Notes under the pieces: model-generated
The model's database searches: none
What the model was told of the DNA's origin: nothing
The model's input: the letters and a program-made list of their open reading frames with translations, nothing else
In this document: piece by piece, positions 8,445 through 54,677 of the stretch
Numbering within the stretch: the stretch's first letter is position 1
How the letters are laid out: every line of letters starts with the position of its first letter
From: Rhizophagus irregularis
Lineage: Eukaryota; Glomeromycota; Glomeromycetes; Glomerales; Glomeraceae
DNA: 64,000 bases
NCBI RefSeq assembly: GCF_026210795.1
Contig: NC_089430.1
Span: 1,550,001-1,614,000 of the forward strand
Direction: 5' to 3'
Translations under genes and position numbers: made by a program

Positions 8445-11400
8445 TTAAATATGGTCTAATGAATCTATTTGATTAATTAAATTAATAATAGATTTTTTTT
8501 TATAGCAATAATTTATTAATAAATACCTGAAGAATTTTTAGTTATTATATCATCATTTTGTTCATAATAATCGTCAGAATTTTTTGGCTCTGGAAGGTTA
8601 TTAAGACTAAGTAAACTACTACCAGTGTAGTTAGCTTTTGAATGCACTTTATATGATGAGCTAGTTAAAGGTGTATTGTTATCATTGATTTCTTCAATTT
8701 TTGTTCTTCCAATTCTAGAGAATTGTCATACTTAAATTCCCATAATTTATCCCTAACTTCAATTGCTGTTGGTCGATTTAATGAATTTGCATCTAAACAT
8801 CTTTTAATTAAATGCACAATGAATTGAGGTACTTTAATAGTGTTAAACCTTGGTCTAAGTCCTAAACAAATTTTCGTTGCTAAAAAGTCATTAAAAATTA
8901 AATTGTGATATGGAGATAATCCAGAAATAACTTCATACATAACTATTCCAAAACTGTAAATATCAGCAGCTTTAGTATAACTTTGTCCTCGTAAAATCTC
9001 AGGGGCAATATAAGGCAAAACACCATATATATTATTTTTTGCATTTTCTGATGGTTTGTAATCTGCAGGTTTACATAATCCCATATCAGTTATAAGAATA
9101 GTTTCGTAATTTTTTAGTACATTACCAGTATGTAGATCTCGATGAATTATTTCATTTCCATGAATATTTTCAAGTCCAGATGCAATATTGTATAAATAAT
9201 TGATTTTAATTTTTAAATCTAATTCATTATTTTCATTTAAAAAATCCCGTAAGCTTCCATTTACTGCATATTCCAAAACCATCATATAATTTTTTGTCTT
9301 TGGATCTTGAGTTATTCCATATAATTTAATAATAAATGAATTATTATCAACTTTATTATGTAATGCAATCTGTATAAAAATATAAATAATATATCAATAA
9401 AATCAAATTCTTAAATTTCATTAATTATAAAAATAAATTATACCTCATTCATAAATTCTAATGAGATATTTTCTGAATTATTTAAACTTTTTAGAGCTAC
9501 AGGCATATTTTGGCTTATTCTTTTCCAATTTTGATATCCATCATCCCAAAAGCTTATATTTCCATCAATCCAATTTGCTTTATATACTATACCAAACCCA
9601 CCTTTTGCAATATACTCAACATTATAAAGTTTATTGTAAGGTATCCATTCTAATGCTTTTTTAACATCGTTTTTATGAGTTGATAGTTGAGTACCTTGAA
9701 TAAATTCATCAATATCATCATTACCACTAGTCCAATTATTGAAATTTAGTAGAAAATGTATTGAACCACATGCACAATCACATTTTTTACACTTATTATT
9801 GTAATAATTTTTCAAAACTATCATATAATCTTTGGTTTCTGGATTCTGTGTTATTCCATAAGTGATAACAACCTAAAAATATTATATATTAGCAAAAAAT
9901 TAAAGTTCATCAAAAATATTAATAAAAAACAAATACATTATACCTCATTTATTAACTTAGAAAATTTTGGACTATTTAATTTTTTCAATACTACAATCAT
10001 ATATTTATCGCTTCTCTCCCACTTTTGATTAATATTATCCCAACACTGTATTTTTCCATCACTCCAATTTGCTTCATAGTACTCATTTTCTGCAATATAC
10101 TTAATATTATAAAATTTATCATAAGATATCCATTCTAATGCATTTTTCAAATTATCATGAGTTGATAGCTGAATATCTTGAATAAATTTATCAACACCTT
10201 CATTACCACTAGTCCAATTATTGAAATTCTTTTGAAAATGTATTGAATAGCATATTTTATTACATTTTTCACATTTTTCACTCAAAACCATCATATAACC
10301 TTTTATTTCTGGAATTTGTGTTATTCCATAAGCAATAGCAATCTATAAATATTACATATTAGCAAAAATTAAAATTTATCAAAAATTTCAATAAGAGCAA
10401 ATTTATCATACCTCATTCGCAAATTCTAAAGTAATATCTTTTGTATTATTTAATTTTTTCAGTATTACAATCATATTTTGACTATTTCTTGCCCAATTCT
10501 GATTATTTATATCCCAATCATATAAATTTCCATCAATCCAATTTGCTTTATACTCATTTGCTGCAATATACTTAATATTATAGAATTTATCATAAGTTAT
10601 CCATTCTAATGCTTTTTTCACATCATAATGAGCTGATAGCTGAGTATCTTGAATAAATTTATCAACATCTTCATTACTACTAGTCCAATTAATAAAATTC
10701 TTTTGTAAATGTATTGCATAGCATATGTTAATACATTTTTTACAATTTTCATTCAAAACCATCAAATAATCATTTGTTTCTGGATTTTGGGTTATTCCAT
10801 AAGCAATAGTAATCTATAAATATTACATATTAGCAAATTTATCAAAAATTTTAATAAGAACAAATTTATCATACCTCATTCGCAAATTCTAAAGTAATAT
10901 TTTTTGTATTAGTATTTAATTTTTTCAGTATTACAATCATATTTTGGCTATTTCTTGTCCAATTCTGATTATTTATATCCCAATCATATAAATTTCCATC
11001 AATCCAATTTGCTTTATACTCATTTTCCACAATATAATTAATATTATAGAATTTATCATAAGTTATCCATTCTAATACTTTTTTCACATCATTATGAGCT
11101 GATAACTGAGTATCTTGAATAAATTTATCAACATCTTCATTACCACTAGTCCAATTATTGAAATTATGTGTAAAATGTATTGAATAGCATTTGTCATTAC
11201 ATTTTTTACATTTTTCATTCAAAATCATCATATAATCTTTTGTTTCTGGATTTTGTGTTATTCCATAAGCAGTAGCAATCTATAAATATTACATATTAGC
11301 AAAAAATTAAAATTTATCAAAAATTTTAATAAGAGTAAATTTATCATACCTCATTCACAAATTCTAAAGTAATATCTTTTGTACTATTTAATTTTTTCAG

Positions 11401-14400
11401 TATTACAATCATATTTTGATTTTTTCTTGTCCAATTCTGATTATTTATATCCCAATCATATAAATTTCCATCAATCCAATTTGCTTTATACTCATTTGCT
11501 GCAATATACTTAATATTATAGAATTTATCATAAGTTATCCATTCAAATGCTTTTTCCACATCATTATGAGCTAATAGCTGAATAGTTTGAATAAATTTAT
11601 CAACAACTTCATTACCACTAGTCCAATTAATAAAATTCTTTTGTAAATGTATTGAATAGCATATGTTATTACATTTTTTACATTTTTCATTCAAAACCAT
11701 CATATAATCTTTTGTTTCTGGATTTTGTGTTATTCCATAAGCAATATAAGCAATAGCAATCTATAAATATTACATATTAGCAAATTTTATATCAAAAATT
11801 TTAATAAGAGCAAATTTATCATACCTCATTCACAAATTCTAAAGTAATATATTTTGTATTATTTAATTTTTTCAGTATTACAATCATATTTTGATTTTTT
11901 CTTGTCCAATTCTGATTATTTATATCCCAATCATATAAATTTCCATCAATCCAATTTGCCTGATATCTATCATTCACAAAATATGTGATATCATAAAATT
12001 TATCATAAGATATCCATTCTAATACTTTTTTCACATCATTATGAGCTGATAACTGAGTATCTTGAATAAATTTATCAACATCTTCATTACCACTAGTCCA
12101 ATTATTGAAATTATGTGTAAAATGTATTGAATAGCATTTGTCATTACATTTTTTACATTTTTCATTCAAAATCATCATATAATCTTTTGTTTCTGGATTT
12201 TGTGTTATTCCATAAGCAGTAGCAATCTATAAATATTACATATTAGCAAAAAATTAAAATTTATCAAAAATTTTAATAAGAGTAAATTTATCATACCTCA
12301 TTCACAAATTCTAAAGTAATATCTTTTGTACTATTTAATTTTTTCAGTATTACAATCATATTTTGATTTTTTCTTGTCCAATTCTGATTATTTATATCCC
12401 AATCATATAAATTTCCATCAATCCAATTTGCTTTATACTCATTTGCTGCAATATACTTAATATTATAGAATTTATCATAAGTTATCCATTCAAATGCTTT
12501 TTCCACATCATTATGAGCTAATAGCTGAATAGTTTGAATAAATTTATCAAAAACTTCATTACCACTAGTCCAATTATTGAAATTCTTTTGTAAATGTATT
12601 GAATAGCATATGTTATTACATTTTTTACATTTTTCATTCAAAACCATCATATAATCTTTTGTTTCTGGATTTTGTGTTATTCCATAAGCAATAGCAATCT
12701 ATAAATATTACATATTAGCAAATTTTATATCAAAAATTTTAATAAGAGCAAATTTATCATACCTTATTCACAAATTCTAAAGTAATATATTTTGTATTAT
12801 TTAATTTTTTCAGTATTACAATTATATTTTGACTATTTCTTGTCCCATCAATCCAATTTGCTTTATACTCATTTGCTGCAATATAATTAATATTATAGAA
12901 TTTATCATAAGTTATCCATTCTAATGCTTTTTTCACATCATTATGAGCTGATAGCTGAGTATCTTGAATAAATTTATCAACATCTTCATTACCACTAGTC
13001 CAATTATTGAAATTCTTTCGAAAATGTATTGAATAGCATATGTTATTACATTTTTTACAATTTTCATTCAAAACCATCATATAATCTTTTGTTTCTAAAT
13101 TTTGTGTTATTCCATAAGCAATAGCAATCTATAAATATTACATATTAGCGAATTTATCAAAAATTTCAATAAGAGCAAATTTATCATACCTCATTCACAA
13201 ATTCTAAAGTAATATCTTTTGTATTATTTAATCTTTTCAGTATTACAATTATATTTTGACTATTTCTTGTCCAATTCTGAATACTTCTATTCCAATAACT
13301 TATATTTCCATCAATCCAATTTGCTTTATACTCATTTGCTGCAATATAATTAATATTATAGAATTTATCATAAGTTATCCATTCTAATGCTTTTTTCACA
13401 TCATTATGAGCTAATAACTGAGTATATTGAATAAATTTATCAACATTTATATTACCACTAGTCCAATTATTGAAATTCTTTTGAAAATGTATTGAATAGC
13501 ATATGTTATTACATTTTTTACATTCTTTATTCAAAACTATCATATAATCTTTTGTTTCTGGATTTTGTGTTATTCCATAAGCAATAGCAATCTATAAATA
13601 TTAAATATTAGAAAAAATTAAATTTATCAAAAATTTTAATAAGGCAAATTTATCATACCTTATTCATAAATTCTAAAGTAATATCTTTTGTATTATTTAA
13701 TTTTTTCAGTATTACAATTGTATTTTGATCTCTTGTCCAATTCTGAATACTTTCATTCCAATTAATTATATTTCCTTCAATCCAATTTGCCTGATATCTA
13801 TCATTCACAAAATATGTGATATCATAAAATTTATCATAAGATATCCATTCCAATGCATTTTTCAAATTATCATGAGTTGATAGCTGAATATCTTGAATAA
13901 ATTTATCAACACCTTCATTACCACTAGTCCAATTATTGAAATTTTGTTGAAAATATATTGAAGAACAAATATAATCACATTTTTTACATTTTTTACTCAA
14001 AACCTTCATATAATCTTTTGTTTCTGGAATTTGTGTTATTCCATAAGCAATAGCAGTCTATAAATATTACATAATAGCAAAAATTAAAATTTATCAAAAT
14101 TTCAATAAAAATATATTTATCATACCTCATTCGCAAATCCTAAAGTAATATCTTTTGTATTATTTAATTTTTTCAATATTACAATCATATTTTTACCTTC
14201 CCTTTTCCAATTTTTATTTTTACTATCCCAATCAATTATGTTTCCATCATTCCAACTTGCCTGATACCTGTCTTTTTCAATGTATTCAATACTATAAAAT
14301 TGATCATAAGGTATCCATTCTAATGCTTTTTTCACATCATTATGAGCAGATAGTTGGGTATATTGAATAAAATTGTCAATATCATTGTTACCGCTGGTCC

Positions 14401-15434
14401 AATTATTGAAATTCTGTTGAAAATGTATTGAATAGCATATGTTATTACATTTTTTACATTTTTCATTCAAAACCATCATATAATCTTTTGTTTCTGGAAT
14501 TTGTGTTATTCCATAAGCAATAACAATCTATAAATATTACATATTAGCAAATTTTATATCAAAAATTTCAATAAGAGCAAATTTATCATACCTCATCCAC
14601 AAATTCTAAAGTAATATCGTTTGTATTATTTAATTTTTTCAGCATCACAATCATATTTTGATTTTTTCTTATCCAATTCTGAATATTTTCATTCCAATAA
14701 TACAAATTTCCATCAATCCAATTTGCTTCATAGTACTCATTTTCTGCAATATACTTAATATTATAGAATTTATCATAAGGTATCCATTCCAATGCCTCTT
14801 TCAAATTATCATGAGTTGATAGCTGAATATTTTGAATAAATTTATCAACACCTTCATTACAACTAGTCCAATTATTGAAATTTTGTTGAAAATATATTGA
14901 AAAACAAATGTATTCACATTTTTTACATTTTTTACTCAAAACCCTCATATAATCTTTTGTTTCTGGATTTTGTGTTATTCCATAAGCAATAGCAATCTAT
15001 AAATATTACATATTAGCAAAAATTAAAATTTATCAAAAATTTCAATAAAAATATATTTATTATACCTCATTCATAAATTCTAAAGTAATATCTTCTGTAT
15101 TTAATTTTTTCAGTATTACAATTATATTTTGACCTTCCCTTTTCCAATTTTTATTTTTACTATCCCAATCAATTATGTTTCCATCATTCCAATTTGCCTG
15201 ATACCTGTCTTTTTCAACATACTTGATATTATGAAATCGATCATAAGGTATCCATTCTAATGCTTTTTTCACATCATTATGAGCTGATAGTTGGGTATAT
15301 TGAATAAAATTGTCAATATCATTGTTACCGCTGGTCCAATTTTTGAAATCTTGTTGAAAATGTCTTGTGTAACATATGCGATTACATATTTTACATACGT
15401 TATATGACAACTTAATCTTTCTCTTTTTATCCAT
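8445..15434 (-). CDS. TKL-type kinase gene with 13 tandem N-lobe exons and one C-lobe exon
   Basis: Minus-strand exons by splice sites: 15066-15434 (start ATG, MDKKRKIKL), 14592-14996, 14126-14527, 13659-14057, 13190-13591, 12763-13128, 12297-12698, 11825-12226, 11350-11760, 10875-11279, 10412-10813, 9944-10342, 9444-9872, then C-lobe 8527-9369 and tail 8445-8464. Each of exons 2-13 begins with YGITQNPETKDYMMVL (strands beta4-5), then a short Cys motif (CKKCNNICYSIHF), WTSGN..VDKFIQ, and a kinase N-lobe ending LEF.NE. All 13 lengths are multiples of three, with phase-0 introns of about 65-75 nt. Only exon 13 has an intact loop (AKGGFGIVYKANW) and VALK; the others read like AANEYKANW with VILK. 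The C-lobe has HRDLHTGN, TDMG, PYIAPE and DIYSFG. One A is missing in the run at 8698-8702, so the frame stops at 8665 (about 1,965 aa) instead of continuing into the family tail KANYTGSSLL...LPEPKN. It is probably a cytosolic signalling kinase; the role of the repeats is unknown. Confidence 0.8.
9444..15434 (-). repeat. Tandem exon-intron array, 13 units of about 470 bp
   Basis: The unit is one exon of about 400 nt plus one intron of about 70 nt (TATGATAAATTTG... to ...TATTTATAG). Exons 7 and 9 (12297-12698, 11350-11760) differ at only two residues, and exons 8 and 10 share their first halves, so a two-unit block has been copied with a period of 947 bp. Exons 1 and 3 (DWDSKNKNWKREG) and exons 2 and 4 (SKKCKKC, EGVDKFIQ) pair in the same alternating way. 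Exon 8 is a mosaic: its second half (ISYDKFYDITYFVNDRYQAN) matches exon 4. Exon 6 lacks 36 nt and exon 9 has gained 9 nt near its 5' end. Confidence 0.9.
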
Positions 15435-20337: not shown

Positions 20338-23300
20338 CTAACTATCTGTTTGCATCATATGTTGCAATAACATTTCTCCTACTGCAATATCATCACTAAA
20401 TTCGTTATTATTATTTTTTGGATGTTCTACATGTTTCAAGAATAAATCTCCCACTGCATTATTATCACTAAATTCATTATTATTATCTGGAACTAGAGGA
20501 TTAAGTAACTGAGATGTATAATCAGCTTTTACATTATTAATTGATTTTCTGCTTTCAAATGTTAAAAGATTTTTTTTTCTGTATTCTTCTGCTTCTTTGA
20601 ATTGACTTCTAATTTCATAATGTTGTTGTTCTTTTTTGATCGACCTGATTCGTTTAAATGTAAGTGCATCCATAGTATATGAATGTTGATATAACTCAAT
20701 CAGTTCACGTATTTCATTAGCACTTGGTCTATTGTCTGGATTTGAATCCCAGCATTTTTTCATTAGGTCTATGTAGCATTTTGATGCTTCTGACTCATAT
20801 ATTACAGGTCTAGTTCCATTACATATACTAAATGCCAAATTTTTATCATGATCACAGTCAGCAAAGGGTTGTCTTCCAGTTGCTACAAAATACATAACCA
20901 TGCCAAAGCTGTATATATCTGCTGCTCGAGTATAAGGTTTTTCATTTAACACTTCAGGAGCTACATAAGGTAACACTCCATAAATTTTTGTTTCATCTTC
21001 ATTGTCAACTTCCCCACATAATCCCATATCTGATATATATATATTAAAACCCATTATATTAGCTTCATATAAAATATTACACACATGAAAATCACGGTGA
21101 ACTAATTGGTTTTGATGAATTTCTTCAAGACCACCAGCAATAATGGCCAACATTTCCAATTTTTCTTCCCAGGGTAAAGTTTCAAAATTCATATTTATAC
21201 AATCCTTCAAAGTTCCACCTTCTACATATTGAAGAACCATAACATAATCCTTTGTATCTGGAACTTGAGACATTCCATACGTTGCAAGAATACTCCAATC
21301 TGTTCCTTCTAATGAATATGCTTTAATCTATTTAAAATAGAAAATCATTATTATTACATTAGATTAAAAGTTATTTAATTAAATTTAAAGATAAAAAATT
21401 TTATTATACCTCATTTAGAAATTTATTGCTAATATTCTGTGAATTATTTAAACATTTTAGAGCAATTTTTTTATTTGCGGTCCTTTTATGTCTATTCTCG
21501 TCTTTATCATATTCAAATGGACCATCCTTCCATATTGCTGAGTATACTGTAGAAAAACCACCTTTTCCTATTTCCTTAATATCACTAAACTGATCATACG
21601 GTATCCATTCAAATACTAACCCATAATAATCATCAATTTTTGATTGCATATATTTTATAAATTTATCAATTCTTTCACTTCCACTGGTCCAATTATTAAA
21701 ATTTTCATTTAAATGACATAATTTACACCACTTAAAATCAATATTTGCATATTTTACGCCACATTTCTCACAATATTTATCCCTAATTACCATAATATAA
21801 TCTTTTGTATTTGGATTTTGAGAAATTCCATATACAATATCATAAGACTCCTCAACCTATTAAAGCATAAAAAAATTTTTATTATCATATTAATAATAAA
21901 ATGTATTAAATTATTAATAGATATACAGTACCTTGTTCAAAAATTCATCAACAATATTTGATGAATTATTTAAAATTTTTAAAGCAACTTTTTGATCTGA
22001 ATTTCTTTTATATTCATAACTGTTTTTATTAAATTCAAATAAACCATCCTTCCATATTGCTGAACATATCGTAAAAGAATCATCTTTGCCTATTTCTCTA
22101 ATATCATTTAATTGACTATATGGTATCCATTCAAATACCATATCATCATAATTATCAATCTCTGATTGCTTATTTTGAATAAAATTATCAATTTTTTCAT
22201 TGCCACTAGTCCAGTTTTTAAAAGTATTTTTTAAGTAATTTAATTGACATGGTTCACACCATTTATATAATATACTCGTATATTCTTCACCACATTTTTC
22301 ACAATATCCATCACTAAATATTACGATATAATCATTCGTATCTGGATTTTGTGATATTCCGTATATTTTAGGGTCATTATCAGATAAACTATCAGAATCT
22401 GATTCACTCGTTAGATATGTTTTGATCTATTAAATGCGAGAAAAAATTATTAGAGAAGTTATAATATTATTAAGAAATATACATAATAAATTAATGGAAA
22501 AGTTCATACTTTATTTAAGAATTCACTAACAACAACTTGAGAGTTATGTAAACACTTTAAAGCAACTCTTTTATCTGATTTTCTAGTCAATTCTCTTTTA
22601 TCGTAATCATAATTTAGTGGTCCACTTTTCCATATTGCTGAATACATTGTGGTGGAATCACTCTTGACAATCTCTTTGACATCGGTAAAATGATCATTTG
22701 GTATCCATTCAAAAACTGGATCGTCCGGTACAAATTTCAATTGCATTTCTTGAATAAAATCATCAATAATTTTATTTCCACTAGTCCAGTTTGTGAAATT
22801 TTCTTTTAAATAATTTATTATACATTGTCCACACCATTCGAAAGTATCACGCCAATGAGGAATTTCAATTGTATTGTAAGTTACGTATTTCTCACCACAT
22901 TTTTCACAATATAAATCTTCCAAGACAATAATATAATCATTTGTATCTGGATTTTGAGACAATCCATACATATAAAGTATATTTTCACTCGCTTTAACCT
23001 TTAAGATAATTAAAAAAACACATTATTGGGCTAGAAAAGTATTATATTTAAGCCAAATTCATAAAATTCTCATACCTGGTTAAGAAGTTCATTAATGATA
23101 TCTTGTGATGAATTATATAAACATTTTAAGGCAACATTTTCACATGATTTCCTTTCATATTTGTTTGTATCATCATTATACTCTAACGGACCATCCACCC
23201 ACGTTGCCTTATATAATATACTAGAATCATTTTTTCCTATTTCTTTGATGTTATTAAACTGATTGTATGGTATCCATTCGAATATATCATCATAATAATT

Positions 23301-24204
23301 AATTTTTAGTTGTCTTTTTTGAATAAAATTATCAATTATTTTATTTCCACTGGTTTGAATTATAAAATTATTTTTAAGAAAATCCATTTTACATAATTTA
23401 CACCACTTACGCATTTGATGAACATATCTTTCAATACATTTACCACAATCTCCATTTTGAAGAACAATAATATAATCATTTGTGTTTGGATTTTGAGATA
23501 TTCCATATACATCAAGTATATTATTATTTTCATAATTTAAATATGTTTTAACCTATTAAAATAAGGAGACAAAAAATTATTATTATTTGTTATTATCAAA
23601 AAAAAAAATTGTATATTAAAATTTTCTTCAAAAAAAACTTTTACAAATTACAAACCTCATTTAGAAATTCGTTAATGAAATTTTTTGAATTATGTAAATA
23701 TTTTAAAGTAAATAATTTATTTGAATCTCTTTCATATTTTTTTGTAGTTCTTTTATACATTAATGGACCATCATTCCATATTGTTGAATAATTCGTAATA
23801 TTATTATTATCATTACCTATTTTTTTAATTTCATTAAACTGATCATATGATATCCATTCAAATATTATTTCATCATAATCATTAATTTTTAATTGTATTT
23901 CTTGAACAAATTTATCAATTATTTCATTTCCACTTGTCCAGTTTATAAAATTTTGTTTTAAATTATTTATTTGACATGATTTACACCATTGATACTTTGT
24001 ATTTGTATATTCTTCGTTACATATTTCACATCGACTTGAATTTTTTTTTTCTGAGGATGTGTGACTTGAAGTGACAGAGTGATCTTCAGATTCATCTAAG
24101 TCAAGGTCAAGGTCAAGGTCAAGATTATTAAAGTCATCATTATCAAAGTCAAAGTCTTCTTCCATCATTTCTACATCCTCTGTTTCATAATTATTGTCCG
24201 ACAT
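20338..24204 (-). CDS. TKL-type kinase gene with five N-lobe exons and one C-lobe exon
   Basis: Exons on the minus strand: 23656-24204 (start), 23076-23552, 22510-22998, 21932-22426, 21410-21856, 20338-21327. All are multiples of three with phase-0 introns; the product is 1,148 aa and fully open. Exon 1 has an acidic N-terminus with a DLDLDLDLD run, a zinc ribbon (C-x2-C-x11-C-x2-C), WTSGNEIIDKFVQ, then an N-lobe. Exons 2-5 each restart with YGISQNP.T.DYI and repeat ribbon, leader and N-lobe. Only exon 5 keeps the ATP loop (GKGGFSTVYSAIW) and IALK; earlier copies read GNDNNNITN or KNDSSILYKA. The C-lobe has VHRDFHVCN, SDMGLCG, PYVAPE, DIYSFGM and CWDSNPDNRPS, then a tail with a duplicated acidic motif (NNNEFSDNNAVG / NNNEFSDDIAVG). 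HRD and D-MG aspartates are present, so catalysis is plausible. It is divergent from, and paralogous to, the next gene. Confidence 0.85.
24101..24124 (-). repeat. Hexanucleotide run coding Asp-Leu repeats
   Basis: TCAAGG is repeated about four times within exon 1 of the minus-strand kinase, giving DLDLDLDLD in an acidic N-terminal tail. Length polymorphism is likely. Confidence 0.7.
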
Positions 24205-24518
24205 TATGAATATTTTAAGAATTTTTTTAAAAAATTTAGCGAAAATGTTTAAAATTTCTACTGCTAGGAGTAAGTATCACAATGAATGGGACGCCCAAAA
24301 TGAGAAGTGTCCGTGATCGACAGTCAAAGATTTTCCACAAAATGACAAAAATATAAGTATTTATTGTACTACAGTATGTAATGCTAAGCTAATCAAATTA
24401 GTCATACCTCGTGTGTCACGTCCCGTAGTGGTACCAATTACCAAACCGCCCTATAACTCTGATCGGCGTGCATTTTAGCGTCATGTTTTTCAACTAAAAA
24501 ACCTTAAAAGCAAATAAC
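24205..24518. promoter_or_regulatory. Shared bidirectional promoter region
   Basis: The two kinase start codons point away from each other across 314 bp. The middle is less AT-rich than its surroundings and holds GGGACGCCC near 24289 and CACGTCCCG near 24417, a loose inverted pair. No TATA box stands out on either side. Divergent paralogues with a common promoter suggest an inverted duplication and co-expression; both are inferences. Confidence 0.5.
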
Positions 24519-27500
24519 ATGTCATTTCAAAACGGGAACAAAATAAATGAAAGATGTGAAAAATGTGATGAACAAGCCACAAAAGAATGGTGTAAATCAT
24601 GTCGAATAAATTTTTTTAAAGAAAATTTTACAAATTGGACGAGTGAAAATAAAAGAATTGATGATTTCATTCAAGAAGTACAATTAAATATTAATTGTAA
24701 TGATATAGTATTTGAATGGATACCATATAATCAATTTGATAATATTAAAGAAATAAAGAAAGATAATGTTATTATATTAAAATTGTCAACATGGAATAAT
24801 GGTCCATTAAGTTATAATCGTGATGAGAGGAAATGGATAAGAGAACCAAATAAGAAGATTACTTTAAAATGTATATGTAATTCCCAAAACAATATTAATG
24901 GATTTTTAAATGAGGTAAGAAATTTTATAAATTGATTTAAATAATTTTTTTTAATTCAAATAGTAATTTTTCTTTTTTTTTCACTTATTCTTGATAGGTT
25001 AAATCGTATTCAACAAATATCTATGAGGTTGAAAGTAAAATATATGGAATATCTCAAAATCCGGATACAAAGGATTATTTAATGATTTTTGAAAATGAGT
25101 ATTGTTGGAATTGTGGTGAAAAATATACAGATGCAAATAATGAATGGTGTAAATCATGTCGAAGAAATTATTTGAAAAATAATTTTACAAATTGGACCAG
25201 TGGAAATGAAAAAATCGATACTTTCATTCAAAAAATGCAATTAAAAATCAATTATTCACCTGATATAGTAATTGAATGGATACCATGTGATCAATTTTAT
25301 AATATTAAGGAAATTAGCAATAAAAATTTCACCATAGTATATTCAGCAATATGGAAGGATGGTCCATTACGTTATGATTATGATAAAAAGGAATGGATAA
25401 GAGAATCAGAAAAAAATGTTGTTTTAAAATGTTTATATAATTCACAAAACATAATTGATGAATTTTTAAATGAAGTATGAAATTTCTTGATAAAGTATTA
25501 TGAATTTATATATGTATACTTAAGTGATAATAATTTTTTTTTTTCTATTATATAATAGGTCAAAACATATTCAACAAATGTTTATGGTGACGATGATAAT
25601 ATTTTAAATATATATGGAATATCTCATAATCCAGAAACAAAAGATTATATTATGGTCTTACAAGATGGATATTGTAAAGAATGTGGCGAACAATATATTG
25701 ATAAATGGTGCAAATCATGTCAAATAAATTATTTTAAAAGAGACTTCATAAATTGGACGAGTGGAAATGAAAATATTGATAATTTTATTCAAAATATACA
25801 ATTAAAAATTAGTAACCAGTCTGATATAATATGTGAATGGATACCATACGATCAATTTAACAATATTAGAGAAATATGCAGGAGTGATCTCATTACAATA
25901 CATAAAGCAATATGGAAGGATGGTCCATTACATTATAATAAAAATGAAAAGAAATGGATAAGAGAATCGGATAAAAACATTGCTTTAAAATGTTTGTATA
26001 ATTCGCAAAACAATGTTAATAAGTTATTAAGTGAGGTATGGATAGTATTTCTTTATGAATTTATTTTAAAATATATAATAATGATTTTTATTATTAATAG
26101 GTCAAAGCTTATTTTGATAATAATGACGTTGTTGATAACAATGATGTTGAAATGTTAACAAATATTGATAATATCAGCGATAGCGTTAATGTTGATGATG
26201 CTGATGTTGATATTAATATTGATGATGATGATGATATTTACGCCGATGATGATGATAATATCAATGCTGATGATGATGATATTGATGACATTGGTGTTGA
26301 TGATGATATTGATGTTGATGATGATATTAATATTGATGATGATATTGATGTTGATGATGATATCGATATTGATGATAACGATAATAATACTAATTCTATC
26401 AAAATATATGGAATATCTCAAAATCCAAATACGAAAGATTATATTATTGTTTTGCAAGATGTATATTGTAAAGAATGTGGTGAAGAATATGCAGATGTAG
26501 ATGACAAATGGTGTAAATCATGTGTTATACGTGATTTAAGAAACAATTTCGCAAACTGGACTAGTGGAAATAAACATATTGATGATTTAATTCAAGAAAT
26601 GCAATTAAAAGTTGATGATTCATATGATTTATTATTTGAATGGATTCCATATGATCAGTTTAATGATATTAAAGAAATTGGTAAAGGTGGTTTTGCTACA
26701 ATATATTCAGCAATATGGAGTGATGGTCCTCTATATTATGATATTATTAATAGAAGAAAGGAATGGATAAGAGATCCAGATAAAAATGTTGCTTTAAAAT
26801 GTTTACATAATTCATTAAATATTAGTAAACAATTTTTAAACGAGGTATCAAACTTTTTTTTTTTTAGAAATTTAAATTTAAATAAAATTTTTTATTAATA
26901 AATATTCTATATTTTGATAGATTAAAGCATATTCGATAGCTAATTCTAGTAAGATTCTTAAAGTATATGGAATATCTCAAAATCCAGTCACAAAAGATTA
27001 CATTATGGTTCTTGAATATGCAGGTGGAGGGAATTTTAATGATTGGATAAATAGAAATTATAAAAAATTTGATTGGAATGAAAAATTATCTATATTATTT
27101 GATATTTGTGAAGGTCTTAAAGAGATTCATGAAAATAAAATGGTTCATCATGATTTTCATACAGGAAATATATTATTTGCGTATCAAGATGAACGTGATA
27201 TATATATTTCAGATATGGGTTTATGTGGAGAAGTTTCAGAAGTTGATAATAATACAAATGAATCGAAAATTTATGGAGTTATGCCTTATGTAGCTCCTGA
27301 AGTATTATACGGAAAACCTTATACTCAGCCAGCTGATATATACAGCTTTGGTATGATTATGTATTTTATAGCAACTGGAAGAAGACCTTTTTTTGATTGT
27401 GCTCATGGAGATAATTTAGTATTAAACATATGTGGTGGAATTAGACCAGAAATAAATGAGCCAGAAGCGCCAAAATGTTATATTGATTTAATGAAAAAGT

Positions 27501-27946
27501 GTTGGGATTCAAATCCAAATAATAGACCAAATGCTGATGAAATTCAGGAATCGATTTATTTATTTGAAAATTCATATAATCAAGAATTTGATATGCGAAA
27601 ACAGCAATATTATGAAATTAATAAACAATTTAATGAAGCAGAAAAGTATAGAAAATTACACTTTTCATTTGAGGACAACAGACCTACACATCCTAAAGCT
27701 GTTTATACTGCTCGGTTACTTAATCCTTATACAAAAAAGCTTCCAAAATATGATGATAAAATCTATGAATTCAGTGATGATATGGTAGTTGAATTGTTAA
27801 AGGATGGTATTATAACAGAAAATGAATCTGATTTTGAATCTACTAAACCAAATACTGAACCTAAGGAAAACCCCATAGAATTTGAATTTAGTGACAATAT
27901 TGCAGTAGAAGAATTATTACTAAAGCATGTGACGGAATTAGAATAA
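24519..27946 (+). CDS. TKL-type kinase gene with four N-lobe exons and one C-lobe exon
   Basis: Exons 24519-24914, 24998-25474, 25559-26035, 26101-26844 and 26921-27946 are all multiples of three with phase-0 introns (GTAAGA, GTATGA, GTATGG, GTATCA donors). The product is 1,039 aa with no stop. Each of the first four exons has a zinc ribbon (C-x2-C-x8-C-x2-C in exon 1), NFTNWTSG-type leader and N-lobe; exons 2-5 begin with a short variable stretch then YGISQNP.TKDY. Only exon 4 has the full ATP loop (GKGGFATIYSAIW, VALK). Exon 4 also starts with a long Asp-rich insert. The C-lobe shows VHHDFHTGN (HRD to HHD), SDMGLCG, PYVAPE, DIYSFGM, CWDSNPNNRPN, then an acidic tail (ENPIEFEFSDNIAVEELL). The catalytic Asp is kept although Arg is lost. 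Mirror-image paralogue of the gene on its left. Confidence 0.85.
26152..26398 (+). repeat. Asp-rich low-complexity coding repeat
   Basis: GATGATGAT(A)ATTGATGTT-type triplets and 12-mers (D-I-D-V-D-D) repeat through the first third of exon 4 of the plus-strand kinase, giving about 80 acidic residues with Asp, Ile, Val and Asn. It is a coding microsatellite. Long antisense and shifted ORFs across it are shadows. Confidence 0.85.
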
Positions 27947-31927: not shown

Positions 31928-33623
31928 TCATCCGTTAGCTTTGTTTGCTTTTACATATTCCAACATATCATTTTTTAATTGTTGATCATCAATATTGGGT
32001 ATAATAATATTATTTTCATCATCGTTTATTCTATAGTATTCATTAACACAATCAATCCATTGAGATATAATATTTTCAAGCATTCTTACAGTTGGCCTAT
32101 TAGAAGGATCTTCATCCCAACATTTTTTCATTAAATCTGTATAACATTTTGGAGTATTTTCCATAATTTTAGGACGTTTCCCTTCACAAATACTTACAGC
32201 ATCACATTCTTCATAACTAAATGGTGGATTACCTGATGTAAATTCCCACATAATCATTGAAAAACTATAAATTTCACTTGCTGGTGTACATGGATTTTTT
32301 CTTAATATTTCAGGCGCCATATAAGGCAAAACTCCATAAGGTTCATTATCATTATCAGAATCTTGTATATCACTTATGGGTTTACATAATCCAAAATCAT
32401 TAATAAATAACTCATTATAATTATCTGAAATTAATATATTACCATCATGAAAATTACCATGAACTAAACTTGATTCATGAATTACTTTAAGTCCTAATAT
32501 AATTTTTTTCAATAATTGTAACTTTTCTTGCCACTTAAATTCAACTATATCAGATAAGCATTTTCTCAAATTTCCCTTTTTTGCATAACTCATTACCATT
32601 ATATAATTTTTATTTGGATATTGGCTAAATCCAAATAATTGAATAAATTTTGAAAATGTTTTTTTCTGACAATTATAATGATATTTCCACTAATAAATAA
32701 TAAAAAAATTATTAAATTTTTATAAAAGAAAATGAAACTTGCTTATTAAATATAAATTAAATATAAATATTATACCTCATCTAGAAATTTATCATTTGAA
32801 TTATCAAGTACTTTAAGAATGACCTCATTTCCCATTTGTCTATCCCATTGTTCCAACCATAAATAGGTCCATCTAACCAGATAGCTTTATGAATTTCACC
32901 AAATCCACCTTGATCATGATAATTAATACTTGAAAGTTTATTATATGGTATCCACTCTAAAATTTCATAATTATCTTTAGCAATTAGTTGTGTTTCTTGA
33001 ATAAATTTATCAATAAATTCATTATTACTAGTCCATTTTGAAAATTCTTGTTGAAATCGTTTAGCATTACATTGTTGGCACCATTGGTAATTACTATATG
33101 GTAGTCTACATTCATTACATAATTCACTTTTATTTTTAGAACTTGCTTTATTACTTTCTGCTGCTTTTCGATGCCAATAATAGGCTTTTTCTAAATTCTT
33201 TTCTGTTCCTTTCCCATCTTTGTAATATATAGATAAATTATTCATTGCTTCTTCATCACCATTTTCTGCTGATTTTTGACACCAATGAAAGGATTTTTCT
33301 AAATCTTTTTCCGTTCCTTCTCCATTTTTAAAACATATGGCTAAATTAGTCATTGCTTTAATATGATCTTTCTCCGCTGCTTTTTGATACCAATGAAAGG
33401 CTTTTTCTAAATTCTTTTCTATTCCTTCTCCATCTTTATAACATATGGCTAAATTAAACATTGCCATTTTATCATTATTTTTTGCTAATTTTTCTAAAGA
33501 ATTGATACAGTCTTCGCACCATAATTCTTTAATAAAAGGTTTGTTGCAATATGAACAACTTTTTGTTCCTACTGTATTGGTATCTTTATCTGAGATATTT
33601 GGTTCACTAAGTTCGGTCTCCAT
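31928..33623 (-). pseudogene. Zinc-ribbon/Sel1/TKL pseudokinase with a frameshift
   Basis: Two exons, 32776-33623 and 31928-32689, with an 86-nt intron. Exon 1: zinc ribbon (C-x2-C-x9-C-x2-C), three Sel1 repeats (FNLAICYKDGEGIEKNLEKA and kin), a second ribbon (CNECRLPYSNYQWCQQC), FSKWTSNNEFIDKFIQETQL, then an N-lobe with QGGFGEIHKAIW. After GPIYGW one base (a G, near 32853) is missing: the correct continuation EQWDRQMGNEVILKVLDNS is in another frame, and exon 1 is 848 nt, one short of 283 codons. Exon 2 has YPNKNYIMVMSYA, then VHGNFHDGN where HRD should be (the catalytic Asp is Asn), NDFGLCK, PYMAPE and CWDEDPSNRPT. So even if the frameshift is a sequencing error, this is a pseudokinase, probably a scaffold. 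Confidence 0.75.
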
Positions 33624-34790
33624 TGGTTATTTTAGAAATTTATTTTGTTGAAAATATATATATATATATTTTTATTGATTTTTTTTTTTTTAAGCGAACT
33701 TTTTAAATAATTTTTTTTTGAAACATGAATGAGTTATTAAAAAAGGAATATTCTAACCAATAAAGAATAAAGGTTAAATTTTTTTTCGGGCCACATTTTT
33801 CCGATGCACTGATCTGCATTAGGTAAAGTTTCTAATGATAGGAAATTCCCGTATCAATAAACAATAATTGTGTAAAAAACTTTGATACACTGGCCTCACA
33901 TGATTATACAAAATTGGAAAGACGAGAACGAATCAAAATAATTGAAGATGAGAAGAGAGGTGCAGATCAGGTGACGATATCAGAAATGACTTGGTCATTT
34001 CGAATTAGGGTCAAATGATTTTCGTTCCGCAAATGCCAAATGCCAAATGATTGGATAGTTATTAAAAAAAAGATTATTGGACATTTAATTACATCATCAC
34101 GGGATGTACAAAACTATATAATCACCACACCAAATTCTTTCTTTTTTTTACTGTAATTTAAAAATCGGCTTTAATAATAGAAATTATTAAAGTGATATAT
34201 ACTAATAATATGTTATTTATTATGTAAATTTTACTAAATATATTTTATGCATAAAAAGAATGTCCTTATTTACAATTATTATTTATTTTTTTTTATTGAT
34301 TATATTATCTATTGTATAATTAGACTTTGCACGGCATAATTTTCATTACTAATTCCACTAAAATTAATGGACGTTAGTGTGAATAAAATTAAATACTGTA
34401 CCTTGTAAAGTAAAAACGGATCATGTGATCATACGAGTGATACGATCGAGCGTAGATTTGTGTAACAGACATTAATTGAAGCTATGATAGTTTAGATCTT
34501 TGAATCAAAAGAAATAATTAAATGGAAAAACACTGTAATTGATAGAAAAATTATAACTAAAATTTACTATTTATTACGGAGAAAATGCGCAATTATTTAA
34601 TATTATAATCACCACATGGAAATCCACATCGAATATTGTGGAAATATGTGAAAATCTGAAAAGTTCCAATATTTTCCAACTATCCTGTGACAAAACACGT
34701 GGTTTTTTCAGCGTATATCCAATGGGAATGCATGGAATTCCACATATTTCTCCTAAAAATCTCGTGATGTTATAATAGTATAAATGTATG
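33624..34790. other. Intergenic, no gene seen
   Basis: Contains an AT dinucleotide run (33653-33671) just upstream of the pseudokinase start. No gene is supported. Confidence 0.5.
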
Positions 34791-39876: not shown

Positions 39877-39954
39877 CACAACAAAATAAGTTAAAATATT
39901 CATCTCACAAATTCGCCACACGAATTCGCTAGGAAAAATTATCAAAGAATTAAA

Positions 39955-41082
39955 ATGCAAAGAGTTCATGATTTTATCATGTTCAAGAATGGGATTAACC
40001 ACAATACTATTAAGAAGAAAGCTAGTGGGATATCAAACCTTTTGAATTTTATCATTTGGAATATTATGTTCTTTTCACTATTTCCACTTGCTTCAGCATC
40101 AATTGCATCATTTGTTGACACAAATTATGTGTCACATACAGATTTGTATGATGCAATTCTCAACACATTTTTTCCAATCTTTTTTGTGATTTTTCTAAAT
40201 GCTTCAGGTAAAGATGGGTCCATCAAAAATATAGTATTACCATTACTAGATGATGTATTGTATAATATGATCACTTGGGTGATTCCACTTGTAGTTTCTT
40301 TTGCCTATGATGACTTGATGAACATAAAAATATTTTCAATCATAAACATGTGTTTACATGTGTTTTGTGCAGTATTTGCAATAATTAAATGGAAAAGAAT
40401 TAATTATAATGATGATTATAATGATGATTTATTTCTCTCAATTATTTTATTCTTGATAATTTTTCCAGTTCTAGTTATTCCAATATTCTGGATAATTATC
40501 ATCACACATAAACATACTTTTGATTCAATTCCAATAATATTTCTTATATTATTCGGAATATGCTTAGTTTCTTTTGTGTTAATAATAATTACACTTATAA
40601 CTCAAGACTTGAAAGACATGACACGGAGAATAATATATACATTATTTATTATATGTTTTTATGTTCCAAATATTCTTCAGACATTATTGATTACATTATT
40701 TTGGCCAATCAATTTTTACTTTGTTAAAGCATGCGTATTTGTACTGATTCTATCATTAACAAGAAATGTGTCCTACTTTGCTGATAAGGTACCTGGTAAC
40801 TTTCTGGCTACTTCAACAACATTGACTCAATGTGGAATTAGGTCTACTCTAAAAGGAAATAAGAAAGCTATCTTAAAAGTGACACAAATATCAATAGAAG
40901 AAATGCACGAAAAGCAGGAAACAATGCAGACGAAAATTGACGAAATTGACAAGATGCAGACAACAATGCAGAAAACAACGCAGACAACAATTGATGATAT
41001 GCAAAAAACAATGCAGGCTAAAATAGATGAAATACAGAAGATAATGAATGAAATAAAAACATCAGTGGAAGAGACAAAATAA
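39955..41082 (+). CDS. Multi-pass membrane protein with C-terminal coiled coil (copy 2)
   Basis: A single exon of 375 aa. Seven or eight hydrophobic segments (for example FIIWNIMFFSLFPLASASI, FFPIFFVIFLNASG, MITWVIPLVVSFAY, FFLIILFGIC-like, SFYVPNILQTLL-type, FVKACVFVLILSL) are followed by a Met/Gln-rich coiled coil of about 80 residues built on an 11-residue repeat (EMHEKQETMQT, KIDEIDKMQTT). The family start codon, ATG before NNY in the other copies, aligns with AGG at 39931; the present ATG is eight codons later. The N-terminus is therefore slightly shorter but all membrane segments remain. I do not recognise the family. A membrane protein with a long cytosolic oligomerisation rod is as far as I can go. 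Confidence 0.75.
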   Translation: MQRVHDFIMFKNGINHNTIKKKASGISNLLNFIIWNIMFFSLFPLASASIASFVDTNYVSHTDLYDAILNTFFPIFFVIFLNASGKDGSIKNIVLPLLDDVLYNMITWVIPLVVSFAYDDLMNIKIFSIINMCLHVFCAVFAIIKWKRINYNDDYNDDLFLSIILFLIIFPVLVIPIFWIIIITHKHTFDSIPIIFLILFGICLVSFVLIIITLITQDLKDMTRRIIYTLFIICFYVPNILQTLLITLFWPINFYFVKACVFVLILSLTRNVSYFADKVPGNFLATSTTLTQCGIRSTLKGNKKAILKVTQISIEEMHEKQETMQTKIDEIDKMQTTMQKTTQTTIDDMQKTMQAKIDEIQKIMNEIKTSVEETK

Positions 41083-46761: not shown

Positions 46762-47306
46762 GATATATTTTTGAGGAGACTTCGTATATCTGTTGGGGAA
46801 GAAAAGGTGGTACTGTGGCGTCAGACCAGGTGGAGATACATTCTGCCGGAATTATTTTAATTTCACATTTGAACAATTTTCACTACTGCTAGAAAGCCAT
46901 GTGATCATGTAATATTTCTTGCAAAATATAAAAGTTTGGAAATGAAAAGCTATAATAAACTTTATTTTGTTATATTTAGTTATGATATTAAGCATTTAAA
47001 TGACTTATGTGTATATGCATGCAACGATACATAGAATGAAAACCCTAACACAAAAACATATTTTGTTTATTGTACATGATACATTAAGAAATATTTAGCC
47101 TACGAGGCGTAACATGTACTACATGCAAAATGATCGTCACAAGAGAAACTCTCTATGCTATTGCATTTAATTGTGAGACTGTATTTATATGCATGTGTGT
47201 AATGATAGTACAGACAGTACACTTTGTATATAAATACGCTATAAACAAATTTCATATTAATTCCACATATTTTGCTATACTAATTTGCAAAACGCACGAA
47301 TTCGTT
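46762..47306. other. Spacer with a dispersed repeat and the copy 3 promoter
   Basis: TTCTGCCGGAATTATTTTAATTTC at about 46840, running to about 46925 (TTGAACAATTTTCAC ... CATGTGAT ... ATTTCTTG), matches the left end of the MITE at 49403. TATAAATA at 47229-47236 is the likely promoter of the gene that follows. Confidence 0.5.
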
Positions 47307-48515
47307 ATGAACAATTATCGAGAAATTAAAAAGCAAAACTTTTATGACTCCATTTTTGAATTCATCATTTTCAGGAATAGGATTAAACACCATATTATTA
47401 AAAGGAAAACTAATGGGATATCAAACTTTTCGAATTTTATCATTTGGAATATTGTGTTCTTTTCGTTCATTCCACTTGCTTCAGCATCAATTGCACCATT
47501 TGTTGACATAGATTATAAATCACAAGAAGATTTGTATGATGCAATCCTTAACACATTATTTCCAATCCTTTTTGTGATTTTTCTCAATGTTTCAGGAAAT
47601 ACTGGGTCTATCAAAAATATAGTATTACCATTACTAGATGATATATTATATAATATGATTACTTGGATGATTCCATTGATAGTTTCTTTTGCCTATGATG
47701 ACTTGATGAAAATAAAGTTATTTTCAATCGCAAACATGTTTTTACATGTAATTTGTGCAGTACTTGCAATAATTAGAGCGAAAAGAGTTGAAATGGCTGT
47801 TAATAACGATCTTTTGAATTTCTTTCGTTCTATCGCTTTAGTCTTGATAATTAATCCAGTTCTAGTTATTCCAATATTTTGGATAAATATCATCACGCAT
47901 ACTAGTCATACTATCGATTCAACTTCTATAATATTTCTTACGTTATTCGGAATATGCTTAATTTCTTTTGTGTTATTACTTACTTTAATATTATTATTGT
48001 CATTTGGTAACAATATTATTGAAAAGGAAATAACAAAAATAATTTGCATATTATGTATTATATGTTTTTATGTTCCAAATATTCTTCAAACATTATTTAT
48101 TGCATTAAGCTGGCCAATCAATTTTTATTTCGTCAAAGCATGCGTGTTTATACTGATTCTATCTTTAACAAGAAATGTGTCCTACTTTACTGATAGGGTG
48201 CCAAAAGACTTTCTGGCTACTTCAACAACAATGACTCAATATATACTCAGTTTCAGTATTGCAAGAGAAATGCAAAACATCTTTAGGGGGATACAAATGT
48301 CAATGGAAGAAATGCACGAAAAGCAGGAAGAAATGCACAAAATACAGAAAACAATGCAAGCGGAAATTGACGAGATGCAGACAACAATGCAGATAAAAAT
48401 TAACGAGATGCAGACAACGATGCAGACGAAAATTGATGAGATGCAGACAACAATGCAGACGAAAATTGATGAAATACAGAAGTCAATAAACGAAAATAAA
48501 AACATAAATGGATGA
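47307..48515 (+). CDS. Multi-pass membrane protein with C-terminal coiled coil (copy 3, most complete)
   Basis: 402 aa from ATG at 47307 (MNNYREIKKQNFYDS). I prefer this start to the in-frame ATG at 47130 because copy 4 has the same MNNY start and because the conserved TATAAATA at 47229 would otherwise lie inside the coding region. About eight membrane segments follow in order (FSNFIIWNIVFFSFIPLAS, TLFPILFVIFLNVSG, NMITWMIPLIVSFAY, ANMFLHVICAVLAII, LIINPVLVIPIFWINI, IIFLTLFGICLISFV, IICFYVPNILQTLFIAL, FYFVKACVFILILSL). The last 90 or so residues are a coiled coil of 11-residue repeats (EMQTTMQTKID), four nearly identical, coded by near-identical DNA. Function unknown; the rod suggests self-association. 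Confidence 0.8.
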   Translation: MNNYREIKKQNFYDSIFEFIIFRNRIKHHIIKRKTNGISNFSNFIIWNIVFFSFIPLASASIAPFVDIDYKSQEDLYDAILNTLFPILFVIFLNVSGNTGSIKNIVLPLLDDILYNMITWMIPLIVSFAYDDLMKIKLFSIANMFLHVICAVLAIIRAKRVEMAVNNDLLNFFRSIALVLIINPVLVIPIFWINIITHTSHTIDSTSIIFLTLFGICLISFVLLLTLILLLSFGNNIIEKEITKIICILCIICFYVPNILQTLFIALSWPINFYFVKACVFILILSLTRNVSYFTDRVPKDFLATSTTMTQYILSFSIAREMQNIFRGIQMSMEEMHEKQEEMHKIQKTMQAEIDEMQTTMQIKINEMQTTMQTKIDEMQTTMQTKIDEIQKSINENKNING

Positions 48516-53050: not shown

Positions 53051-53446
53051 AAAATTTTAAAAACTGTTAGAGGATTAAAATGCGTATTTTGTAAAAATTT
53101 CAGGGTTAGGAGCTATAAATGCGTACTGATCATAGTCAAAAGTGCTGCGTACAGCTAATAGTAAATTTTTTTTTCTGGACCTTACCTATATCAGTATTGT
53201 TCAGGGTCCTACGGCAACTGTGCATGTGGTAATTTTTAAAATGGAATGGGCGAAAATCTGGCCAAAATGAAATGATTGACTAAAATCATTTCCTTTTAAA
53301 GAAAAAAAATCGCCTATCTTTGTGTTATCCTGAATGATCATCCAAATCAACGGAATTAATTTAATTAAACTCTAAGCCTTACGAGGCGTAGCATGTACCA
53401 TAGGTACAATACATTTTACCAAACAAATTCTCTTTACAAAATCACT

Positions 53447-54677
53447 ATGAACAATTATCAAGAATTATTTTTTCTGATTAATCAAACAAGGCAAAGATTT
53501 CATGATTACATTTTTGGATCCATTATTTTCAGGAATGGGATTAAACAACATATTATTAAAAGGAAAACTTATGGGATATTAAACTTTTCGAATTTTATCA
53601 TTTGGAATATTGTGTTCTTTTCGTTTATTCCACTTGCTTCAGCATCAATTGCATCATTTGTTAACATAGATTATAATTCACAAGAAGATTTGTATGATGC
53701 CATTCTTAACACATTTTTTCCAATCCTTTTTGTGATTTTTCTCAGTGTTTCAGGAAAAACTGGGTCTATCAAAAATATAATATTACCATTACTAGATGAT
53801 GTATTATATAATTTGATTACTTGGATGATTCCATTGATAGTTTCTTTTGCCTATGATGACTTGATGAACATAAAGATATTTTCAATCATAAACATGTGTT
53901 TACATGTAATTTGCGCAGTACTTGCAATAGTTAGAGTGAAAAAAGTTGAAGAGGTTTTGATAACGATGGTTATTTTAGTTCGGATTTATTTCTTTTTATC
54001 ATTGCTTTCTTGATATTTTTCCAGTTCTAGTTATTCCAATATTTTGGATAATTATCATCGCGCATAGTCATAGTACTATCGATTCAACTTCTATAATATT
54101 TATTACATTATTCGGAATATGCTTAATTTCTTTTATGTCAATATTTATTTTAATATTTATTGAGCACAATTTTAAATATGAAAGAGGGGACAAAACATTT
54201 TACATATTGTATATTATAAGTTTTTATGTTCCAAATATTCTACAAACATTATTGATTGCATTAAGCTGGCCAATCAATTTTTATTTCATCAAAGCATGCG
54301 TGTTTATACTGATTCTATCTTTAACAAGAAATGTGTCCTACTTTACTGATAGGGTGCCAAAAGACTTTCTGGCTACTTCAACAACAATGACTCAATGTAT
54401 ACTAATCAGTATCCGTATTACAGGAGACATGCAAAACATCTTTAGGAGGGCACAAATGTCAATAGAAGAAATGCACGAAAAGCAGGAAGAAATACACAAA
54501 ATACAGAAAACAATGCAAGTGGAAATTGACGAAATGCAGACAACAATGCAGACGAAAATTGATGAGATGCAGATATCAATGCAGATGACAATGCAGACGA
54601 AAATTGACGAGATGCAGACAACAATGCAGACGAAAATTGATGAAATACAGAAGACAATAAACGAAAATAAAACATAA
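53447..54677 (+). pseudogene. Multi-pass membrane protein with coiled coil (copy 4), frameshifted
   Basis: Closest to copy 3. It starts MNNYQELFFLINQTRQRFHD at 53447 and follows the family through the fourth membrane segment, then loses one base at about 53954 (the text continues FDNDGYFSSDLFLFIIAFL in the next frame) and another near 54017 (then IFPVLVIPIFWIIII in the third frame). From 54135 to the stop at 54675-54677 the frame is open again, with SFYVPNILQTLLIALSWPIN and the coiled-coil repeats (EMQTTMQTKID, EMQISMQMTMQT). Two small deletions make it a pseudogene, unless they are sequencing errors. Confidence 0.75.

Follow-up and report, generated by a model that had tools for sequence, protein, structure and literature searches.

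What is made by a protein kinase gene in which thirteen exons for the N-lobe stand in tandem ahead of a single exon for the catalytic half, and what might its product do? The gene lies on the minus strand of a 64,000-nucleotide stretch of the Rhizophagus irregularis genome (assembly GCF_026210795.1, contig NC_089430.1, forward-strand positions 1,550,001 to 1,614,000; hereafter the window, to whose numbering all coordinates refer). We favour, with a probability of roughly 60%, the reading that it encodes a tandem array of free N-lobes that serves recognition or docking and regulates one C-terminal TKL-like kinase; the layout and the signs of selection are taken from the sequence, the fold from structure models, and binding and switching are proposed from these.

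Layout of the array and its predicted product

Tandem Repeats Finder placed two abutting arrays at 9606-15396, with periods of 472 and 466, and the minus strand carries 13 stop-free exon frames from 15434 to 9444, followed by a catalytic exon from 9369 to 8665, which confirms the plan described in the original prediction. The introns linking these exons measure 61-74 nt, all are GT..AG and all are in phase 0, and the joined product has 1,965 residues, the length that had been given for splicing in order. The parts of the gene are listed below, Ka and Ks being the nonsynonymous and synonymous distances.

15066..15434, minus strand: exon 1; start Met, Cys motif, WTSGN helix, beta1-beta3, alphaC start; glycine loop lost; identical to the start of the public model RirG_216980
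14592..14996, minus strand: exon 2; beta4-beta5, Cys motif, WTSGN helix, beta1-beta3, alphaC start; glycine loop lost
14126..14527, minus strand: exon 3; exon-2 layout, glycine loop lost
13659..14057, minus strand: exon 4; exon-2 layout, glycine loop lost
13190..13591, minus strand: exon 5; exon-2 layout, glycine loop lost
12763..13128, minus strand: exon 6; exon-2 layout, 12 residues fewer between beta2 and beta3
12297..12698, minus strand: exon 7; exon-2 layout, near-identical to exon 9 (Ka 0.006, Ks 0.015)
11825..12226, minus strand: exon 8; exon-2 layout, close to exon 10 (Ka 0.045, Ks 0.086)
11350..11760, minus strand: exon 9; exon-2 layout, 3 additional residues at the start
10875..11279, minus strand: exon 10; exon-2 layout, glycine loop lost
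10412..10813, minus strand: exon 11; exon-2 layout, glycine loop lost
9944..10342, minus strand: exon 12; exon-2 layout, diverged alphaC start
9444..9872, minus strand: exon 13; the sole N-lobe exon with an intact glycine loop (AKGGFG) and VALK
8665..9369, minus strand: catalytic exon; alphaC end, beta4-5, hinge and C-lobe (HRDLH, DMG, APE); PF07714, E=2.5e-37
8516..8725, minus strand: family-type C-terminal tail NNLPEPKNSDDYYEQNDDII in a different frame, compared by eye with the public protein P0007

Exons 2 to 13 start with a segment of the YGITQNPETKDYMMVL type that comprises the end of alphaC and beta4-beta5; the copies had been rightly recognized as N-lobe exons, and this start had been missed. 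In the catalytic exon a segment of the same type comes after a longer alphaC end. The exon unit combines two pieces: first the part with which a C-lobe exon begins (alphaC end, beta4, beta5), then an ordinary N-lobe exon, the order of which is Cys motif, WTSGN helix, beta1-3 and alphaC start. Because exons 2-13 open with beta4-beta5, splicing in order rebuilds an N-lobe (beta1-5 and alphaC) at each junction; the C-lobe is reached only from the last N-lobe, and the other rebuilt N-lobes stay free. The predicted product is better described as twelve free N-lobes and one whole kinase than as thirteen half-domains.

We infer that the mature messenger RNA of this locus comprises all the exons joined together. 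Public gene models lend this partial support: RirG_216980, from strain DAOM 197198w and another assembly, contains exons 1-4 of the window array in order (100, 100, 100 and 98.5% identity) with the junctions as predicted; past exon 4 the model errs, its fifth exon being mixed, and it does not confirm the number 13. At array loci elsewhere in the genome, all seven exons of L028 match P0021 in order (mean identity 99.9%), all eight of L016 match P0007 (96.8%) and nine of the ten of L015 match P0008; for 14 of 23 arrays no exon match of at least 93% was found among 258 public proteins.

Read by eye, the product shows the features of a protein kinase, with AKGGFG, VALK and NE in the N-lobe and HRDLH, DMG and APE in the C-lobe; together with the PF07714 match, these features place it among TKL-like protein kinases and it is apparently a working kinase. 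Among the N-lobe exons scanned singly against Pfam (1, 10 and 13) none matched a kinase family: exons 10 and 13 matched no family at all, and the only hit of exon 1, to DUF72, fell below the threshold, so that domain counts could miss such an array. No NACHT or NB-ARC match was obtained in exons 1, 10 and 13 or in the C-lobe, the exons covered by these scans, and no 19-residue window of the 1,965-residue product reaches 1.8 on the Kyte-Doolittle scale, as a transmembrane segment would.

The glycine loop marks the last N-lobe

The thirteen copies had been treated as equivalent, which they are not: the glycine loop is found in exon 13 and in none of the 12 upstream exons. We examined 26 arrays, three in the window and 23 at further genomic loci, a non-random sample in which 20 loci were picked for clustered matches to the first unit type and three for a second unit type. 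In 26/26 only the N-lobe adjoining the single C-lobe keeps the loop, against 0/221 upstream N-lobes (open-frame units only). By type, the loop is present in 23/23 last N-lobes and 0/204 others of the first-type arrays (20 fetched loci and the three of the window), and in 3/3 last N-lobes and 0/17 others of the three second-type arrays.

The same division is seen in 240 public proteins (the best 120 of 179 matches and the best 120 of 2,018 matches), in which an N-lobe was counted only if its match spanned hidden Markov model (HMM) columns <=18 to >=75, the rest being dropped. The motif GGF occurs in 216/230 attached N-lobes versus 4/933 free ones, the exceptions being 14 attached N-lobes without GGF and the four free ones with it. 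Free and attached units also differ in the Ala of VALK (25% versus 90%), the alphaC Glu (62% versus 91%) and the beta3 Lys (85% versus 99%), and free units often lack the hinge and the second half of alphaC. Loss of the loop takes varied forms: in some units three or four residues are deleted, in others the loop is altered by substitution (EDEFG, KSRFG and KNGLI, among others), so that it may have happened more than once. No C-lobe match was obtained in 21/240 public proteins, which are perhaps cut gene models. More than one was found in 13 of 120 public proteins plus the window product, some of which look like tandem whole kinases and others like one C-lobe matched in two pieces. P0061, P0064, P0094, P0096 and others, with three or four C-lobe matches, apparently consist of whole kinases in tandem, a plan opposite to that of the N-lobe arrays.

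The glycine-loop counts bear directly on the idea that the upstream exons are a reservoir, which the original prediction had raised as one for exon shuffling. In its alternative-splicing form a single N-lobe exon at a time would be spliced to the C-lobe, as in Dscam, and since all exons are in phase 0 any subset would stay in frame. The resulting kinases would nevertheless be dead, with no working glycine loop supplied by any upstream exon (0/12 here, 0/221 over the 26 arrays), and the public models join several N-lobe exons in order. We therefore rejected a mutually exclusive exon array and regard alternative use of the exons as very unlikely.

Arrays across the genome and in other fungi

The form is not peculiar to this gene, as had been supposed. 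The N-lobe array is a large family in this genome: the best 150 matches of the first unit fall on 12 contigs and those of the second on 21, together on 24 of 32 contigs as counted by eye (the lists, drawn from 4,221 and 4,804 candidates, may include genes with a single N-lobe). The number of N-lobe exons per array ranges from 4 to 19 in 23 arrays; L023 and L024 start at the edge of the fetched stretch and may be longer, one C-lobe match within L019 was ignored, and the first two units of L029, 2.6 kb from the others, were counted with them.

The window itself holds two further arrays.

20338..24276, minus strand: second array; five N-lobe exons and one catalytic exon, GKGGF only in the last N-lobe
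24498..27946, plus strand: third array; four N-lobe exons and one catalytic exon, GKGGF only in the last N-lobe

The two are arranged head to head, and about 220 bp separate the first open frame of one from that of the other. In the third array, the last N-lobe exon contains an Asp-rich minisatellite (periods 6 to 24) at 26193-26376, ahead of its beta4-beta5 segment.

Exons 7-8 and 9-10 of the window array form near-identical blocks that appear to stem from a recent duplication of two units. In a comparison of 23 arrays, a middle exon has a middle exon of its own array as its nearest relative in 140/181 cases, and a last exon has another array's last exon in 23/23. A kinase gene with a single N-lobe at 60796-62742, in which the split between N-lobe and C-lobe exons is alike by eye, suggests an origin of the array unit in the fusion of adjacent exons, with multiplication afterwards.

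A search for the same plan in other Glomeromycotina, which had been proposed as a check, was successful, and the array plan occurs in predicted proteins of several lineages of arbuscular mycorrhizal (AM) fungi. Among the array proteins of R. irregularis and R. clarus, P0038 has 25 N-lobe matches and P0001 has 19; R. diaphanus proteins are among the matches listed. Glomus cerebriforme P0069 has eight, one of them partial, and the plan is found in Acaulospora morrowiae P0103 and six further Acaulospora proteins. The latter six and five Gigaspora rosea proteins have two to five N-lobe matches each; the last N-lobe carries GGF in 7/7 Acaulospora and 5/5 of these Gigaspora proteins, and the Acaulospora models P0242, P0243 and P0245 end without a C-lobe match. 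By Kyte-Doolittle analysis, five hydrophobic segments precede the array in each of the Gigaspora proteins P0247 and P0248, and none were found in P0249 and P0252. By eye, P0247 and P0248 begin with a region rich in N-glycosylation-like sites, followed by the hydrophobic segments, the free N-lobes and one kinase. This order suggests possible receptor forms of the array; both proteins are gene predictions and may come from a wrong fusion of genes.

An assembly or annotation artefact, the former being one condition under which the original prediction would have fallen, could be suspected from the near-identical blocks of exons 7-8 and 9-10 and from the way RirG_216980 breaks off after exon 4 into its mixed fifth exon. 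Most units are, however, clearly diverged, the plan is shared by 26 arrays and recurs in other species, in proteins that come from other assemblies, and RirG_216980 itself, from another assembly, agrees for exons 1-4. The artefact was rejected on these grounds, and we give it almost no credence.

A constrained core with fast-evolving loops

Selection was analysed in 158 of 204 upstream exons, those whose splice sites are clear and whose next intron measures 46-119 nt. Observed and expected changes were compared column by column under a mutation model taken from fourfold sites, and for the 15 arrays with at least three close pairs the fast columns were picked on all other arrays and tested on the array left out. 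Omega of the fast columns exceeded 1 in 14/15 held-out arrays (median 1.67), and omega of the conserved columns was below 0.5 in 15/15 (median 0.16). The three Cys are kept in 98-99% of the 158 free exons, with omega of 0.03-0.09, and may make the linker a zinc-binding one; also kept are the W of WTSGN (99%), the E of EWIPY (99%) and the beta3 Lys (92%). Placement by eye on the consensus puts the fast columns at the alphaC-beta4 junction, next to the Cys and between them, between the second helix and beta1, at the scar of the glycine loop and in the beta2-beta3 stretch. In 281 pairs, codon positions 1 and 2 differ at 0.251 and 0.180 in fast columns and at 0.026 and 0.020 in conserved ones (columns chosen on the same data); in the same pairs introns differ at 0.095 and fourfold sites at 0.081.

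Two regularities were not used as evidence: exon-length differences are multiples of three in 407/407 cases, where the finder accepted only in-frame splice sites, and the phase-0 intron rule held at 195/204 junctions (eight without an acceptor, one without a donor), where only phase 0 was considered. An expected number of stops was likewise set aside as a test, since overlapping pairs enter into it and the exons had been chosen for their open frames.

A constrained core with fast loops is what one would expect where a fold is retained and its binding varies, and it supports in part the earlier suggestion of a ligand- or effector-binding array. It also bears on the explanation that harmless repeats are simply spliced in, with selection removing stops and frameshifts to protect the kinase and everything else drifting. 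Weak overall constraint would fit such drift (pooled omega 0.82; in the window array a median Ka/Ks of 0.75, with 51 of 78 unit pairs below 1), as would a unit number that varies from 4 to 19 and the small number of broken units. Drift does not predict conserved columns at an omega of about 0.16, the retention of the three Cys or the recurrence of the plan outside Rhizophagus; it is already weakened by the core constraint, and we hold it to be distinctly unlikely. Plain pseudogene decay was rejected because of the same constraint.

Structure prediction models the free units as N-lobes, and the nearest folds include RIP-type TKL kinases, with JAK-family folds also appearing. The retained fold would also suit the main rival to a recognition array, a kinase scaffold in which the free N-lobes form a multivalent docking array for other kinases, either by pairing of N-lobes or by lending one, and so cluster kinases without sensing an outside ligand. 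RIP-type TKL kinases pair through their N-lobes, which counts for this explanation, as does the beta3 Lys, kept in 85% of free units in the public proteins and at an omega of 0.0 in those of the genomic arrays, as if a kinase-type surface still mattered. Fast-evolving loops are, however, unexpected on a conserved surface for self-assembly, and the lent N-lobe in particular is weakened by the lower retention of the alphaC Glu in free units and by the frequent lack of the hinge and second half of alphaC. We consider the scaffold unlikely, if more plausible than drift.

Proposed role of the array and points that weigh against it

Under the recognition or docking reading that we prefer, the locus would yield one protein, with twelve catalytically empty N-lobes, each preceded by a small Cys-containing linker of two helices, and then one complete TKL-like kinase. 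The shared core would keep the N-lobe fold and the loops would diversify to bind varied partners, whose binding to the array may switch or recruit the single C-terminal kinase. The ligands would be non-self, host-derived or other kinases, and both their binding by the loops and the regulation of the kinase by this binding are proposed here from the pattern of evolution. More tentatively, and at somewhat less than even odds, we suggest that in AM fungi the kinase N-lobe has become a repeat for recognition, comparable to leucine-rich repeat (LRR) or WD40 arrays, and that these fungi carry many such arrays, with one kinase per array and loops under diversifying selection for recognition of non-self, host or symbiont, the Gigaspora proteins being candidate receptor forms.

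Several observations weigh against this reading. Taken as a whole, the units are weakly constrained, with a pooled omega of 0.82 over 206 pairs; in 539 pairs codon positions 1, 2 and 3 differ at 0.165, 0.115 and 0.144, with introns at 0.144. Fourfold sites change a little less than introns, so that the omega values may be about a fifth too high. Pairs drawn from one array have a history in common and are not independent, and the selection results carry no formal probability. One held-out array, L023, gave a fast-column omega of 0.88. In free units the beta3 Lys, with an omega of 0.0, ranks with the most strongly constrained residues although the glycine loop is gone, which is not explained by a pure binding-surface role. 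The packing of the repeats is not confidently predicted (predicted template modelling scores, pTM, of 0.52 and 0.45). The family C-terminal tail of the window kinase is out of frame; the break falls beyond the kinase core, which stops at 8665, and may be due to a miscalled base or to an allele that has lost the tail. Finally, a stop lies inside the best match of 4/250 array units (in L011, L014, L020 and L023, the long match of the last possibly extending past the exon), and further stops were flagged in L014 (a second one) and L031.

Some of these five arrays may be decaying, damaged or misread; in L014 the C-lobe was matched in two pieces. Among the best-scoring genome matches an internal stop occurs in 8/300 (4/150 for each unit type), and no unit of the window arrays has one. 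Most arrays look intact, if not every one.

Relation to known systems

JAK-type kinases have one complete pseudokinase before the active kinase. The arrays resemble them in having an inactive module of kinase fold ahead of an active kinase, and differ in that this module is a row of N-lobes without C-lobes. Plant tandem kinase proteins likewise fuse dead kinase parts to a kinase in a context of recognition. They have few, whole kinase or pseudokinase domains, as against the many N-lobes and one C-lobe of the window array, where one C-lobe exon stands to 13 N-lobe exons and the two or more domains with both lobes that define such proteins are not found; RWT4 contains a partial kinase duplication.

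The likeness to fungal NLR proteins is one of mode of evolution only. Their repeats combine high internal conservation with positively selected sites (Dyrka 2014, PMC4986451), and, as far as that account goes, the arrays share with them tandem units that are highly identical to one another and vary in number, sites that diversify within a conserved frame, and a single effector domain. Units 7 and 9 of the window array, at a Ka of 0.006, and a loop omega above 1 in 14/15 held-out arrays correspond to this behaviour, the identity cut-off of PMC4986451 not being applied. The repeat here is a kinase N-lobe and not WD40, ANK or TPR, the effector is a kinase, and the exons scanned gave no NACHT or NB-ARC domain.

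Kinases are among the most expanded families of AM fungi (Maeda 2018, PMC6123716; Dallaire 2021, PMC8647823), and the catalytic exon of the window belongs to PF07714, given as the most frequent motif of the expanded genes (PMC6123716). In the passages cited here both papers treat gene number and tandem genes, not tandem N-lobes within one gene. We found no description of N-lobe arrays in the literature searched, which mostly left out subscription papers, where one may exist. Our reading bears on the reason for the large number of kinases in AM fungi: if it is true, part of the expansion would consist of diversifying sensor arrays, which would be testable candidates for the recognition of partners or non-self, and half of the kinase fold could serve as a repeat module.

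Other features of the window

A further kinase gene at 31928-33626 has a single N-lobe exon (DQGGFGEIH) and about three 108-bp repeats that are Sel1-like by eye. Three frames that resemble membrane proteins and, by eye, one another lie at 39895-41082, 47088-48515 and 53369-54677; their ends contain tandem repeats (33 bp and related periods) encoding an MQTTMQTKIDE-like stretch. Two adjacent minus-strand frames at 50229-52319 appear transposase-like by eye, no search having been made.

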